From an uncultured Ruminococcus sp. (GTDB lineage Bacteria > Bacillota > Clostridia > Oscillospirales > Ruminococcaceae), in NCBI GenBank assembly GCA_947169885.1, contig CAMVRM010000021.1, positions 1 through 47,369 on the forward strand: a DNA stretch of 47,369 bases, read 5' to 3'. The notes beneath the pieces were generated by a model. That model saw nothing but the letters and a program-made list of their open reading frames with translations, was not told the DNA's origin and searched no databases. Of this stretch, positions 29,037-34,308 are shown piece after piece. Each line of letters begins with the position of its first letter. The first letter of the stretch is position 1. Both the position numbers and the translations under genes were made by a program.

Positions 29037-31433
29037 TCAGACCTGAGCGCCTACGCCGTAGCCTGTGTCCTTGTAAGTGGACTTTTTCTTTTTGCCCTGA
29101 GACTTGAAAGACTTGTCGGGGTTCTTCTTCTCAACGTGCTTCTGCCATGCGACCCAGAGGGACGGAGCAAGGCACATGGAAGTGTAAACACCCGAAAGCA
29201 TACCAACGATCATCGGGAGCGAGAAGCTCATGATCGAGGAAACGCCTTTCAGCGAGCAAACGACTGTCACGATTATCATAACAGAGATCGTGGTGACGTT
29301 GGTGTGGATATTTCTGGTGATAGTCTGCGTGATAGACATATTGGTGAGTTCCTGAATGTCCAGCTTTTTGCCGTACAGACGCTTGTTCTCACGGATACGG
29401 TCATAGATGATGATAGTCGAGTTTATCGAGTAACCCATGATCGTCAGCAGAACTGCGATGAAGTTGGAGCTGATGTCGAAGCCAAATACAACGAACGCAC
29501 CGTAAACCATTATCATATCGTGGAGAAGTGCAACGACTGAGAATGCACCTGCGGAAATACCGCCGATGTTGCGGAAACGCAGTCCGATATAGATTATCAT
29601 GACAACGATCGCAAGGAGCAGAGCCACTAAGCACTTAGCGAAGAAGGTCTTGCCGTTTGTTGCGGAAACGTTTGTGGATTCAAGAGTTTCAACATTGTTG
29701 TCGGTGAATTTCTCGGTGATAGCAGTCTTTAACTGTTCCTGCTTAGCGTCGTCGATACCGCCCTTGGAGGAGAAGCTGAGCTGGAGAGTGTCCTTGCCGC
29801 TCGTCATATCCTTACCCTGAGTAACGGTGCAGCTTTCGCCGATAGTGTCCTTGACGAGAGTCTCGACCTCGGAGTTGTCGATGCTTCCCTCAAAGGTGTA
29901 GCTGATGAGCGTACCGCCCTTGAACTCGATAGCGATCTTGGGGAAACCTGCGATAGTCAGACCTGCGAAAAGCAGTACCAGCAGGGTGGAAATGGTATAA
30001 ACGATCTTGCCCTTGCCTGTAACGTTGTAGCGCTTCTGTTCGAGAGCGGGGGCACGCTTTTCGTCCTCCTTGACACCGTAGAACTTGCGCTTTCTGAAAC
30101 ACTTGAACTTAGCAAGCGATTCGAGCATAAGTCTTGAACAGAAGATGCCGAAGAAGAAGTTTGTGATGATGCCGACTAACAGTGTGTAGCCGAGCGAATA
30201 GATCGTGCCTGCCATCTGTGCGCCGAACGCCATGAAGAAAGGCTTTAAAAGTGTGCCGAACACGCTGTCGGTCGAACCGAAGCTTCCCATAAGGATAACG
30301 GCAACGAAGATTACTGTGATGTTGGAGTCGAAAACTGCCGCCCATGCACGCTTGTAGCCCTGCTCGATAGCGCCGTTCAGGGTCTTGCCGAGGCGGAGTT
30401 CTTCCTTGATGCGCTCTGCAACGATGATGTTTGCGTCAACGCCCATACCGATCGAGAGGATAATACCTGCGATACCGGGGATAGTGAGCGTGAAGCTCTC
30501 GAAGTCCTTGAAGAAGCCCGAAATGCAGGCGAGCGAGCCTGTTACCTGACCGACAAGTGCGAGAACTGCAACAAAGCCGGGCAGTCTGTAAAAGATGATG
30601 AGGTAAACAGCCACGAAGCCGAATGCGATAAGTCCTGCCATGAGCATTGCGGACAGCGCACCTGTGCCGAGGGTCGGGCTGATGATGTTTGTGCTTGTTG
30701 CGACAAGCTTGAAGGGCAGAGAACCTGCGTTTATCTTGTCAGCGAGCGCCTTGGCTTCTTCATAGGTGAAGTTGCCCGAGATCTGAGCCTTTCCGCCTGT
30801 GATAGGCTCGTTTACGTTCGCATCGGAGATCATTGTGTCGTCCATCCAGATAGAGATGTCGCCGTTTCCTGCAAGTTCGGTGGTGGCATCTGAGAATGCC
30901 TGTGTTCCGTCAGAGTCGAGCGTCAGGCTGACTACCCAGTTAGTCTCGCCGTTGTCGCCGTCGTAACCGCCTGCTTCCGCCTTAGTTACCTGCTGACCTG
31001 TCATTATCTCCTCGCCCGTCTGCTCAGAGCCTTTGACAAAGCGCAGGATAGCAGTCTCGCCGAGTTCGCTGACAGCCTGTTCGGGATCGAAATCCGACTC
31101 CCCTGCCTGCCACGGGAATGACACGATGACTTTGTTCTTGTTGTAGTCGACATAAACTTCGCTGTCGGTGATGTTAAGGTTCAGAAGTCTCTGTTCGATA
31201 ACTGCCTTAGCCGAGTTCATGTCGTCCTCGGTAGCTTCGTAGTCATCGGCGGGACCGAACGTTGCATTGACACCGCCTCGGATGTCTATGCCCCACCTTA
31301 TCTCATTTACGCTCTTTATGACTGTAAACTGCGAGTCTCCGTAAAAGTAATGTACGCCCATTATCGTTAAGTACGCAAAGGCGAATATCAGTATGAAGAC
31401 CACGAAGAATACAGGCTTTTTTGCACGTCGCAC
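29037..31433 (-). CDS. secDF: SecDF fusion, protein translocase accessory subunit
   Basis: A 798-residue RND-family membrane protein that uses proton motive force to complete Sec-dependent export. The SecD half (about 1-450) has the motifs WGIDIRGGVNATF and, after its first periplasmic domain, GMGVDANIIVAERIKEE; the SecF half (about 490-798) has IEFKGGTLISYTFEG and the later MGYSINSTIIIYDRIRENK. Twelve membrane helices are expected. The fusion is typical of Gram-positive SecDF. The start is a GTG at 31433 with AGGAGG seven bases upstream; a TTG at 31451 would begin inside that site's leader. C terminus is basic then YKDTGYGVGAQV. Confidence 0.95.
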   Translation of the reverse strand: MRRAKKPVFFVVFILIFAFAYLTIMGVHYFYGDSQFTVIKSVNEIRWGIDIRGGVNATFGPADDYEATEDDMNSAKAVIEQRLLNLNITDSEVYVDYNKNKVIVSFPWQAGESDFDPEQAVSELGETAILRFVKGSEQTGEEIMTGQQVTKAEAGGYDGDNGETNWVVSLTLDSDGTQAFSDATTELAGNGDISIWMDDTMISDANVNEPITGGKAQISGNFTYEEAKALADKINAGSLPFKLVATSTNIISPTLGTGALSAMLMAGLIAFGFVAVYLIIFYRLPGFVAVLALVGQVTGSLACISGFFKDFESFTLTIPGIAGIILSIGMGVDANIIVAERIKEELRLGKTLNGAIEQGYKRAWAAVFDSNITVIFVAVILMGSFGSTDSVFGTLLKPFFMAFGAQMAGTIYSLGYTLLVGIITNFFFGIFCSRLMLESLAKFKCFRKRKFYGVKEDEKRAPALEQKRYNVTGKGKIVYTISTLLVLLFAGLTIAGFPKIAIEFKGGTLISYTFEGSIDNSEVETLVKDTIGESCTVTQGKDMTSGKDTLQLSFSSKGGIDDAKQEQLKTAITEKFTDNNVETLESTNVSATNGKTFFAKCLVALLLAIVVMIIYIGLRFRNIGGISAGAFSVVALLHDMIMVYGAFVVFGFDISSNFIAVLLTIMGYSINSTIIIYDRIRENKRLYGKKLDIQELTNMSITQTITRNIHTNVTTISVMIIVTVVCSLKGVSSIMSFSLPMIVGMLSGVYTSMCLAPSLWVAWQKHVEKKNPDKSFKSQGKKKKSTYKDTGYGVGAQV

Positions 31434-31459
31434 TATATTTCCTCCTATCAACTTTCTTA

Positions 31460-31499
31460 CTATGTGAGATGCTCAGACGGCAGAATTTCCCTCACATAG
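31460..31499 (-). promoter_or_regulatory. Hairpin in the secDF 5' leader
   Basis: On the minus strand CTATGTGAG pairs perfectly with CTCACATAG around a 22-base loop. It begins about 9 bases after the expected transcription start and ends about 26 bases before the start codon. No T run follows, so it is not a terminator; it may stabilise or regulate the mRNA. Confidence 0.6.
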
Positions 31500-31514
31500 C
31501 CGATTCACCATATT

Positions 31515-31543
31515 ATTATACTACTTTTCTTCCCTCTTGTCAA
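31515..31543 (-). promoter_or_regulatory. secDF promoter
   Basis: Minus-strand TTGACA (31538-31543), 17 bases, TATAAT (31515-31520); both perfect, about 82 bases upstream of the GTG. Confidence 0.92.
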
Positions 31544-31625
31544 TAGTTTGATGCTAAAAAATTCCGTAAATAATGATTTAATTTATATAAAACTGCTCAT
31601 ATCGTTCTATAAATAATATATTCAA

Positions 31626-31736
31626 ATAGTATATGCTGTCGTGAGCAAGAAACCAACTAACATTTTTCAATAAAAAAAATATATAGTGTGCGGCGTGAGC
31701 AAGTGACAAACAAACATTTTTTCAAAAAAAAAATTT
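31626..31736 (+). repeat. Two tandem copies of a 55-bp AT-rich unit
   Basis: Units at 31626-31680 and 31681-31736 share CGTGAGCAAG, then a variable ACCAACTAACA or ACAAACAAACA segment, TTTTTCAA and an A run. They are imperfect direct repeats immediately before the pentad array. No coding potential. Confidence 0.7.
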
Positions 31737-31740
31737 GCGT

Positions 31741-32031
31741 TAAACTTTGTTAGTCTTTGTTTGTCTCAGCTATACTCTCTTTTTCTTTGCTTTACTTTTC
31801 TAAATTAAACTGTACTTTACTTATCTTTACTCAACTATACTCAACTTTTCTTAACTTTACTTAGCTTTACTCAACTATTCTTAGCTTTTCTTAGCTTTAC
31901 TTAGCTTTACTTAGCTTTACTTAGCTTTACTCAACTATACTCAACTATATTTAACTATACTTCACTTTACTTAACTAAACTCAACTAAACTTACCTAAAC
32001 TAACCTATACTTACCTATCCTAACCTTACCT
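31741..32031 (+). repeat. Degenerate pentanucleotide array, (YTNNN)58
   Basis: Over 290 bp, every fifth base on the plus strand is T, with no exception in 58 units, and the base before it is always C or T (C in 53 of 58). The other three positions vary among T, A, C and rarely G. The centre contains an exact CTTTACTTAG 10-mer run (31870-31930). The period is not a multiple of three and all frames have stops, so it is not coding. The complementary strand reads NNNAG. It ends against the TGTATACA palindromes at 32033. It is the core of the 1-kb gene-free region 31434-32444. Confidence 0.9.
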
Positions 32032-32032
32032 A

Positions 32033-32062
32033 TGTATACAAGTTGTATACAAAATGTATACA
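32033..32062. promoter_or_regulatory. Three TGTATACA palindromes at 11-bp spacing
   Basis: TGTATACA occurs at 32033-32040, 32044-32051 and 32055-32062, with 3-base spacers (AGT, AAA). The phasing is about one helical turn, so three dimers could bind the same face. It lies 66 bases upstream of the polyamine operon -35 element, a normal place for a regulator site. The same 8-mer appears once upstream of nrdD (25386-25393). Confidence 0.7.
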
Positions 32063-32127
32063 CGGGACTTGCAGATTTATTCATTACAAAACTCAAAAAT
32101 GATAACAGCATATTGTTGAAAATAGTC

Positions 32128-32156
32128 TTGACAATCGTTATGAGTTGTGTTATAAT
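32128..32156 (+). promoter_or_regulatory. Promoter of the polyamine gene cluster
   Basis: TTGACA (32128-32133), 17 bases, TATAAT (32151-32156), both perfect. It implies a leader of about 280 bases before the speA start. Confidence 0.92.
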
Positions 32157-32162
32157 AGATAA

Positions 32163-32444
32163 AGCTTGAATGAGCAGCGACCGCTTTTTGATATTTTGAA
32201 AAGCAAAGCCCAGACGGACAGGCGGGTCGAAAGCCGAACGCAGCTGCGGCTGCATTATTGATAAGGGGAATTTTTTTATCCCCGACTTTTTATAAGATGA
32301 CTTTTGTCAACATCGCTTGTGAAACGGTCAATAACAATCGGCATTACTCGCTTTTCATTTTCGGCGGACGTGCAAAGAAAGACATTTTCATGCAGGTGAT
32401 GCGTTATTCGTGTCACCTGTTATTTTGATTGGACGTGGAAGATT
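32163..32444 (+). promoter_or_regulatory. Long 5' leader of speA
   Basis: About 280 bases of untranslated leader. Its first third is GC-rich with self-complementary stretches (GCAGCTGC; GGCTGC). Then GGGGA (32265-32269) faces TCCCC (32279-32283) around a nine-base loop, followed by GACTTTTTAT, which resembles a weak terminator. A 43-codon ORF (32297-32428) follows. I do not recognise a known riboswitch class. Length and structure suggest control by attenuation or translation; this is inference. Confidence 0.5.
32297..32428 (+). CDS. Possible leader peptide upstream of speA
   Basis: A 43-codon ORF from ATG at 32297 to TGA 16 bases before the speA start codon. It begins MTFVNIACETVNNNRHYS, contains several Arg/Lys/His residues (NNRHYS, GGRAKK, MRYSCH) and ends HLLF. 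In enterobacteria the speFL leader peptide upstream of an ornithine decarboxylase senses ornithine by ribosome arrest, so a short ORF at this position is suggestive. Against it, there is no good ribosome binding site: the closest G run is in the hairpin 28 bases upstream. Chance occurrence is quite possible. Confidence 0.3.
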   Translation: MTFVNIACETVNNNRHYSLFIFGGRAKKDIFMQVMRYSCHLLF

Positions 32445-33902
32445 ATGGATAATTTTATTGAAAGGCAAAAAAGAGCGCCCGTTTATGAGGCTCTGGAACG
32501 TTTCAGACGGCAGAGGGTAGTCCCCTTTGACGTGCCCGGTCACAAGCGCGGCAGAGGAAATCCCGAGCTTGTTCAGCTTCTCGGCGAAAAATGCGTCGGG
32601 CTTGACGTGAATTCCATGAAACCGCTCGACAACCTCTGTCACCCCGTTTCGGTCATATACGATGCGGAGGCGCTGGCGGCTGAGGCTTTCGGGGCGGCTC
32701 ACGCTTACTTCATGGTGGGCGGCACGACTTCTTCGGTGCAGAGCATGGTGCTTTCTGCCTGCAAAGCGGGCGACAAGATAATCCTTCCCCGAAACGTCCA
32801 CAGAAGCGTTATAAATGCGCTGGTGCTGTGCGGCGCTGAACCTGTTTACGTAAACCCCGATGTTGACCCCCACATCGGCATAGCGCTCGGCATGGACTTG
32901 TCCCAGCTGAAAGAAGCAATGGACGCTCACCCCGATGCGACTGCCGTGTTCGTCAACAATCCCACTTATTACGGCATATGCTCAGACCTGCGCTCTATCG
33001 TGAAGCTTGCGCATGAACATGATATGCTGTGTCTTGTGGACGAAGCGCACGGAACACACCTTTATTTCCACGATGAACTCCCCGTTTCGGCTATGGAGGC
33101 AGGCGCAGACATGGCGGCAGTCTCGATGCACAAATCGGGCGGAAGCCTGACACAGAGTTCCCTGCTCCTGCTGGGCGAGAGCATGAACACACGCTATGTT
33201 GAACAGATAATCAACCTTACGCAGACCACAAGTGCAAGCTATCTTCTGCTGTCGAGCCTTGACATATCACGGCGTAATCTTGCGCTCAGAGGTCATGACA
33301 GCTTTGAAAAGGTGCGCCAAATGGCGGAATATGCCCGAAGCGAGATAAATTCTATCGGCGGTTACTACGCTTACGGAAAAGACCTTGTGAACGGGCGCAG
33401 TATTTACGATTATGACGTTACGAAGCTTTCTGTCTACACCCGTGACATCGGGCTGACGGGCATTGAAGTCTATGACCTGCTCCGTGACGAATACGACATA
33501 CAGATAGAGTTCGGCGACATCGGGAATATCCTCGCTTATATCTCGATAGGCGACCGCATTCAGGACATCGAACGTCTTGTCGGTGCGCTGGAGGACATAA
33601 AGAGGCTTTACCACAAGCCGACTTCAAAGCTCCACAACGCCGAATACATCACGCCTATCGTGGCGGCTACCCCTCAGAAAGCGTTCTACTCCGACAAGGA
33701 ACTTGTGCCGATAAGAGAAACGGCAGGGCGCATCTGCGGAGAGTTCGTTATGTGCTATCCCCCGGGAATACCGATACTAGCCCCCGGTGAGATGATAACG
33801 AAAGAGATCATCGACTACACGCTTTTTGCAAAGGAAAAGGGCTGTTCCATGCAGGGACCCGAGGACGGTTCGCTTGAACGGCTGAATGTGCTGAAAGAGT
33901 GA
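32445..33902 (+). CDS. speA: Arginine decarboxylase-type PLP enzyme (Orn/Lys/Arg family)
   Basis: A 485-residue decarboxylase of the aspartate-aminotransferase fold, similar in size to the biosynthetic SpeA of Bacillus. VPFDVPGHKRG near the N terminus, the PLP-contacting VDEAHGTH (Asp about 199), and the Schiff-base lysine in SMHKSGGS (K230) are visible. The arginine preference is inferred from the operon, since aguA and aguB downstream use agmatine; lysine or ornithine cannot be excluded by motif alone. The start has a modest TGGAAG site 4 bases upstream. It is the first structural gene of the polyamine cluster. Confidence 0.9.
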   Translation: MDNFIERQKRAPVYEALERFRRQRVVPFDVPGHKRGRGNPELVQLLGEKCVGLDVNSMKPLDNLCHPVSVIYDAEALAAEAFGAAHAYFMVGGTTSSVQSMVLSACKAGDKIILPRNVHRSVINALVLCGAEPVYVNPDVDPHIGIALGMDLSQLKEAMDAHPDATAVFVNNPTYYGICSDLRSIVKLAHEHDMLCLVDEAHGTHLYFHDELPVSAMEAGADMAAVSMHKSGGSLTQSSLLLLGESMNTRYVEQIINLTQTTSASYLLLSSLDISRRNLALRGHDSFEKVRQMAEYARSEINSIGGYYAYGKDLVNGRSIYDYDVTKLSVYTRDIGLTGIEVYDLLRDEYDIQIEFGDIGNILAYISIGDRIQDIERLVGALEDIKRLYHKPTSKLHNAEYITPIVAATPQKAFYSDKELVPIRETAGRICGEFVMCYPPGIPILAPGEMITKEIIDYTLFAKEKGCSMQGPEDGSLERLNVLKE

Positions 33903-34254: not shown

Positions 34255-34279
34255 GGTAGTTTGTTATTCTTTCTTCTTT

Positions 34280-34308
34280 CTTATTTCTTATTTCTAATTT
34301 CTTATTTT
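34280..34308. repeat. Short AT-rich repeat before speE
   Basis: CTTATTTCTTATTTC units; the reverse complement nearly matches 12837-12870. It lies directly upstream of the speE ribosome binding site. Confidence 0.55.

Follow-up and report, generated by a model that had tools for sequence, protein, structure and literature searches.

The window analysed here, i.e. the whole stretch of 47,369 nucleotides from an uncultured Ruminococcus sp. (genome G000, contig C21), carries between a secDF gene and an Orn/Lys/Arg decarboxylase gene a long array of pentamers, which is joined at one end to three short boxes and accompanied beyond its far end by two copies of a further box (Table 1). The triple of boxes is perfect and unique within the 47-kb window; it abuts the array, and the first-pass annotation, which had been made from the letters alone, made no mention of it. 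No initiator gene adjoins the array, its flanks being the secDF and decarboxylase genes. A Pfam scan of 17 window proteins (19-46 kb; 17 of the 48 listed ORFs of at least 170 aa) revealed no phage-type family among them. A search of the array against Rfam gave nothing at the gathering score; with relaxed thresholds, a weak SpF44 match (20.8 bits vs a gathering score of 70) overlaps the far end. Between a promoter-like site and the decarboxylase gene, positions 32178-32237 match the SpF59/ldcC RNA (RF02440, 60.7 bits), and similar sequence is also present in G001 and G004. Furthermore, arrays of a TTTCTTA heptamer are abundant in G000 (e.g. window 34270-34307), with 345+407 pattern matches vs 1+1 for the reversed control when 3 mismatches are allowed.

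Table 1. Positions of the array, its boxes and the flanking genes in the window.
Feature	Position	Strand	Remarks
AG-pentamer array	31735..32034	-	60 unbroken AR(NNN) units; plus strand reads YTNNN; AG in 53/60
Array head	31992..32031	-	AGGTA AGGTT AGGAT AGGTA AGTAT AGGTT AGTTT AGGTA; mostly the commonest phage-origin units
Three iterons TGTATACA	32033..32062 (starts 32033, 32044, 32055)	.	8-bp, palindromic, 11-bp spacing; adjoin the array; TRF period 11
Distal box TGAAAAAATGTTTGTT	31709..31724	-	past the array's far end; found next to the G000:C7 and C46 arrays too
Distal box, second copy TGAAAAATGTTAGTT	31655..31669	-	sequence
secDF gene	29037..31451	-	chromosomal flank; context
Orn/Lys/Arg decarboxylase gene	32445..33902	+	chromosomal flank; context

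On the plus strand, every fifth base from 31741 onwards is a T (58/58 units), preceded by C in 53 and by T in 5 units. A direct recount thus bears out what the first-pass annotation had reported, and the run is even longer than claimed there, namely 60 YT units (31735-32034), two beyond the reported 58, with length and unit counts read from one assembly contig. When the 993-bp intergenic sequence (with the array in it) was simulated 2000 times by a first-order Markov model, the longest YT run did not exceed 9 units. The autocorrelation proposed in the same annotation makes the period clear, since self-identity within the array is 0.57 at lag 5 vs 0.20-0.35 at lags not divisible by 5; the still higher values at lags 10 (0.74) and 20 (0.70) indicate a 10-bp alternation of unit types. 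Read on the minus strand, the unit has A in 60/60, G in 53/60, T in 33/60 and A or T in 56/60 cases, and C in the last position in 2/60, so that the three positions once described as varying freely are not fully free. The window array holds 28 AG units in succession within its 60 AR units. AGG units make up 6/10 at the array head and 0/49 in the remainder, and loss of the G clusters at the far end (4/9 of the last units vs 2/50 of the others). The AT content of the array is 71% vs 50% for the window. As stated earlier, the array is non-coding: stops occur in all six frames (16-17 per minus-strand frame, 4-7 per plus-strand frame), and the longest open stretch comprises 36 codons.

Two further arrays exist in the same genome, one at C46, found by similarity search beside an ORF that we read as a tRNA methyltransferase, the other at C7, found by flank and pattern searches. 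Blast of the array in 100 genomes (own and relatives) matched at least four; beyond the own genome, the candidates scored gave three short matches (L004-L006, E 6e-4 to 1e-3) without a YT run of at least 8. The C7 array is made up of several unbroken runs, the longest of 38 and 27 units, and lies on the AG strand inside an open ORF of 319 aa. Its protein matches phage 'DnaD-like helicase loader' families (phrog_5708, E 6e-52; phrog_8489, E 1e-51); it gave no Pfam or NCBIfam family, and a sequence-profile search of the PDB returned at best an unrelated protein at E 0.14 or worse. Pfam DnaB_2 matches 2/9 homologs of the C7 protein. Array, polarity and the distal box TGAAA..ATGTTTGTT are common to the window, C46 and C7 loci, and the box in all three points to common descent from a C7-like gene element. 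C46 and C7 carry one box of another type, GGTTAACC, instead of that of the window.

When the arrays of the window and C46 are aligned from their heads over 34 units, they differ at A in 0/34, at G in 1/34 and at positions 3-5 in 11, 17 and 16 of 34 units. Within the window, the 23 unit types (59 units) require a minimum of 24 changes, none of them at A (equal-rate P 0.005); unit duplication within the arrays weakens both of these tests of A/G constraint. The constraint that had been suspected on the fifth-base T is consequently backed in part by the comparison with C46, with the reserve just given, and moreover by the AG-every-5 rule in replisome-organiser genes of phages and Clostridia described below. 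In G001, the closest relative examined (its decarboxylase is 96% identical), the secDF-decarboxylase neighbourhood is the same but contains no array, the common landmarks lying 548 bp apart vs 1028 bp in the window, so that the array looks like a lineage-specific arrival. The comparison of orthologous secDF-speA regions proposed earlier was thereby run on G001; it yielded presence or absence, but no information on drift. The G001 counterpart of the C46 locus has no match to the C46 array, the two flanks of the C7 locus have their counterparts on separate contigs, and the model R3 (see below) found no match at the corresponding G001 loci L009 and L226. In G001, an element of about 60 bp (L003 1815-1877) is behind 42/44 of the matches listed in this relative.

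Homologs of the C7 protein occur in at least 15 of 297 family genomes (own included), 126 phage records, 15 genome_contigs loci and 2 viral contigs. From 49 loci (L076-L124) 36 non-redundant genes were retained; the 13 others were 6 near-duplicates or close relatives, 6 short or truncated genes and the own copy. The longest period-5 AG run averages 7.2 units in the 36 genes, which is the highest value among the 160 pairings of a dinucleotide with a period from 3 to 12; the runner-up averages 4.2. Runs of at least 5 AG units exist in 28/36 genes, and every one of the 28 starts at gene nt 354-443, just past the N-terminal domain; the units seen most often in these runs are AGGAT, AGGTT, AGGTA and AGTAT. 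The remaining 8/36 homologous genes are without such a run. Synonymous shuffles within each gene (300 each, AR runs) gave P<0.05 in 25/36 genes and not in 11, which implies that the register of the coding copies is partly carried by peptide or codon repetition. In the homologous gene L109 the period-5 run is mostly AA(CCN) and not AG, and a Lin1244_N-type replication initiation gene (L260 2-826) has an AG-pentamer run, i.e. the rule may reach beyond one initiator family.

Directly before the array, a second regularity is found. In the preceding 50 nt of 33 loci (the 28 genes, the window, C46, C7 and two orphan copies treated below), self-identity is 0.544 at lag 11 and 0.519 at lag 22, vs 0.21-0.31 at the other lags between 3 and 24. 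For the 28 genes alone, the lag-11 mean is 0.536 vs 0.269 in random windows from the first 330 nt of the same genes, with a maximum of 0.300 in 200 draws. The distance between the last box and the array in the window (TGTATACAT followed by AGG) equals that in the genes L077, L079 and L111 (TGGATACAC followed by AGG).

Starting from the iterons leads to the same layout. In viral contigs, a pattern of three TGKATMCA boxes at 11-bp spacing (at least 120 stretches) and one of the TGACAACC type (7) were sought, which resulted in 127 viral loci by iterons alone, 109 of them non-redundant, among the matches listed; all counts from this survey are to be read within these listed matches. A run of at least 4 AG pentamers begins no more than 46 nt after the iterons in 99/109 non-redundant loci, and in 91/99 the array starts at offset 1, 12, 23, 34 or 45 (1+11k), that is, in step with the boxes. 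An ORF matching the initiator N-terminus contains the module in 93/99 loci. Ten of the 109 are without an AG run of 4, and four of these ten lie in initiator genes. For the TGKATMCA pattern alone (111 stretches after repeat removal), an AG run is found on one side in 96 cases, on the other side in 0, and at random places in 4/555. None of the 127 loci has a run longer than 16 AG or 17 AR units, vs 60 AR in the window. L312 and L346 have iterons and an AG array outside any initiator-matching ORF; in L312, an ORF about 0.9 kb from the array resembles what we take to be a serine recombinase. A scan of viral contigs that started from the array pattern returned 101 stretches; the 80 examined gave 17 runs of at least 10 AG-type units, and the ORFs around 2 of them have the initiator N-terminus. 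Of 15 such viral runs listed, 11 are (AAGTT)n microsatellites that recur in a single context.

Independent evidence on the window comes from the model R3 (A3), built from 24 gene rows without the window, the other own-genome arrays, the two orphans and L117. Over 82 kb it found the window at 32002-32062 (minus strand), i.e. iterons and array head, with 54.1 bits (E=1e-15). The orphans L250 and L252 scored 53.2 and 50.6 bits, and C46 and C7 were weak (22.2 bits, and 11.4 bits with E 0.02). The models R1 and R2 had window rows in their training sets, which makes their scores on the window circular and of no value as independent evidence; R2 (A2) comprises 28/33 iteron rows, L085, L102, C46, C7 and L115 being omitted (no clear iterons or shifted start). 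In the 297 family genomes, own genome aside, R1 gave at least 11 matches, namely 8 initiator genes (three of them also training rows, two from G124 and one from G182), 1 gene of Lin1244_N, which we take to be another replication initiation family, and 2 places outside such genes. With R2, at least 35 of 391 class genomes matched at E<=0.01. Among the R2 loci classified (24 of 30), 15 lie in initiator genes, 3 in other genes and 6 outside genes with short arrays (L282, L288, L289, L292 and L297 without ORF; L295 in an ORF of 17 aa).

Some copies of the module are non-coding, which makes the register a property of DNA and not of the peptide. On the viral contig L331 (7752-8187) the initiator ORF stops after 124 codons, corresponding to the N-terminal domain (phrog_8489, E 4e-57), and the iterons and array follow behind it with stops in three forward frames. 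Orphans beyond the own genome are G213:C5 (L252) and G294:C32 (L250), between ORFs that we would take for ordinary chromosomal genes; iterons and AG pentamers number 11 and 12 in L250, and 3 and 8, without expansion, in L252. Together with the window and C46, clear orphans are thus present in three genera. The window copy has the 11-bp iteron spacing and the AG pentamers in 5-nt register on the last iteron, two marks of a replisome-organiser phage origin that derive from the comparison made here and not from a published definition. It does not lie within a cognate initiator gene, a location that is not invariable either, because the L331 origin stands just behind the gene. As the layout is present and the gene is not, we file the window copy as an orphan with the layout of such origins, not as a complete phage replicon.

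Taken together, the window feature is very probably, as judged from sequence comparison, an orphan phage-type replication origin of the replisome-organiser family (DnaD-like helicase loaders, e.g. Tuc2009 Rep), in which the second of two modules has been hugely expanded. What has been observed directly is the layout in two modules with its register and one-sidedness, its conservation both in initiator genes of phages and bacteria and in copies outside genes, and how far the window array is expanded. The first-pass statement that the repeat matches no nameable element type, iterons among them, is hence contradicted, since a pentamer array joined to 11-bp iterons has the layout of a phage replisome-organiser origin. 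In the mechanism that we infer, the three palindromic 8-bp iterons at 11-bp spacing (module 1) would be bound on double-stranded DNA by the N-terminal domain of the initiator. Module 2, the one-strand AG(NNN) array that starts beside the last iteron and runs away from the iterons, would offer its AG strand as a track that an initiator/helicase-loader complex engages in 5-nt register at origin opening. The 10-bp alternation of units would set like units on one face of the helix, so that a double-strand reading of the array may apply as well. Initiator binding, origin opening and a present role of the window copy thus belong to the predicted part of this picture.

Several points run against this reading. 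The window is without an adjoining initiator gene, unlike the 93/99 viral cases among the matches listed, and the one homolog found in its own genome (C7) has the different box GGTTAACC, with R3 weak on both C46 and C7. Moreover, AG runs of at least 5 are absent from 8/36 genes and runs of 4 from 10/109 iteron loci among the matches listed, and peptide or codon repetition adds to the register in coding copies.

It is already known that such phage genes contain their own origin. For TP901-1 ORF13 and Tuc2009 Rep, passages of PMC8965321 describe binding to regions of direct repeats that are located in the very genes encoding these proteins and act as ori, and the database record on Tuc2009 Rep reads 'contains origin of replication'. 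As in Tuc2009 (orf16/Rep), where 11-bp repeats are followed by 12 AG pentamers, the repeats of the family stand just after the region coding for the N-terminal domain; unlike Tuc2009, the window copy is outside genes, has no adjoining initiator, and carries TGTATACA boxes instead of CAACC-type repeats as well as 60 units. TP901-1 (ORF13) is likened from the literature description of its ori and not from sequence. A further parallel are the strand-specific repeats at bacterial oriC, the DnaA-trios and, on the opposite strand, the DnaD recognition element, as presented in passages of PMC10797057 and PMC10201434. Like DnaA boxes and DnaA-trios in the basal unwinding system described there, the window combines double-strand boxes with short strand-specific repeats in register. 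Its period is 5 and not 3 (lag-3 self-identity of the array 0.21 vs 0.57 at lag 5), its iteron sequence is another one and its presumed partner a DnaD-like phage initiator instead of DnaA; no homology is claimed. For the RepA_N plasmid pSK41, passages of PMC5703833 place the ori inside the rep gene, where it encodes the linker domain, and describe Rep domains as DnaD-like in structure. The likeness to pSK41, drawn from this description, lies in the origin within the rep gene, as in the family treated here; the passages make no mention of an AG-pentamer array. Those available from PMC3445015 and PMC5601072 contain nothing on the repeats. In the portions of the literature at hand, we found neither the combined grammar of 11-bp iterons and 5-nt AG units nor expanded orphans on chromosomes described; primary phage papers may cover part of this.

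With this assignment, an odd repeat becomes a testable origin element with a two-part grammar that is common to many phages. The 5-nt register gives a handle on DNA opening and helicase loading by DnaD-like phage initiators, as it is asked at chromosomal origins by the work on DnaA-trios and the DnaD element. Furthermore, the grammar allows a sequence-based search for replication origins in Firmicutes phages, and finding orphan copies on chromosomes prompts one to ask whether decoy origins occur in nature.

Most likely, a phage or plasmid replicon brought in the origin, which today is a fossil or, if it is still bound, a titration site for the initiators of incoming phages. We weigh the fossil somewhat above the decoy. 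For the former, to which we give not quite an even chance, the prophage or plasmid replicon would have been lost with its non-coding origin left behind, and the long array would be a slippage remnant without present function. This agrees with the absence of phage-type Pfam families among the 17 scanned window proteins (19-46 kb), with the nearest relative examined being without the array, with the distal box common to the three own-genome arrays, and with a genome rich in short tandem repeats (TTTCTTA pattern 752 vs 2 in the reversed control). Neutral decay, however, should hit the A equally, yet 0/24 changes fall on it (P 0.005), and C21 and C46 differ at A in 0/34 vs 44/102 at positions 3-5, both figures being weakened by unit duplication. 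The decoy, in which the orphan origin would titrate the initiator of an infecting phage as a chromosomal form of PER (phage-encoded resistance), is a tentative proposal by analogy that we regard as possible. In Lactococcus, origin and organiser cloned in trans give PER, as far as the available text of PMC8965321 goes, and phage Sfi21 has a non-coding element of 302 bp, similar to an origin, that confers PER through its copy number, according to passages of PMC6356513. The likeness to such elements, drawn by description, consists in non-coding origin-like DNA that could titrate a phage initiator; unlike them, the window copy is a single chromosomal locus, which may titrate little. For Sfi21, the same passages describe the effect as dependent on copy number. 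Expansion multiplies the sites (60 AR vs at most 17 in the 127 viral loci among the matches listed), another orphan, that of G294, has 11 iterons and 12 AG pentamers, and clear orphans stand between other genes in three genera. Nevertheless, orphans are rare (2 clear ones beyond the own genome in 297 family genomes, among the candidates scored), L252 with 3 iterons and 8 pentamers is without expansion, and no cognate phage was identified. The broader proposition that the AG array is a single-strand initiator track, i.e. a 5-nt counterpart of the DnaA-trio for DnaD-like loaders of Firmicutes phages, and that some gut Clostridia at the same time keep orphan expanded copies as sequence-matched decoys, appears rather unlikely to hold as a whole.

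Two readings place the array outside replication altogether. TRAP binds NAG triplets at about 5-nt spacing, and the minus strand reads NAGNN for tens of units, so that an RNA target of a TRAP-like ring protein was considered. TrpBP (PF02081) had no match in the genome, and it was found in the B. subtilis genome used as control; upstream of the array head, a consensus scan of 31400-32500 gave only one minus-strand promoter-like site (9/12 at 32134-32107). We regard such an RNA target as extremely improbable. A plain pentanucleotide microsatellite that grew by slippage and is unrelated to origins is likewise very unlikely. Pure (AAGTT)n arrays in other viral contigs and a nearly pure (CTTTA)n array on NZ_CP110134 illustrate that such repeats exist, but the window array, instead of near-identical units with changes at all positions, holds 23 types in 59 units without A loss and is joined exactly to three 11-bp iterons. 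The R3 match (E=1e-15) and the same layout in 99/109 iteron-found loci among the matches listed speak against it as well. Blast of the array gave no match in phages and one in plasmids, namely a mostly pure CTTTA run on NZ_CP110134. This record (L007, NZ_CP110134.1), filed as a Peribacillus plasmid with a CTTTA array, may be mislabelled; one of its ORFs resembles what we take to be a mitochondrial NADH dehydrogenase subunit 5.
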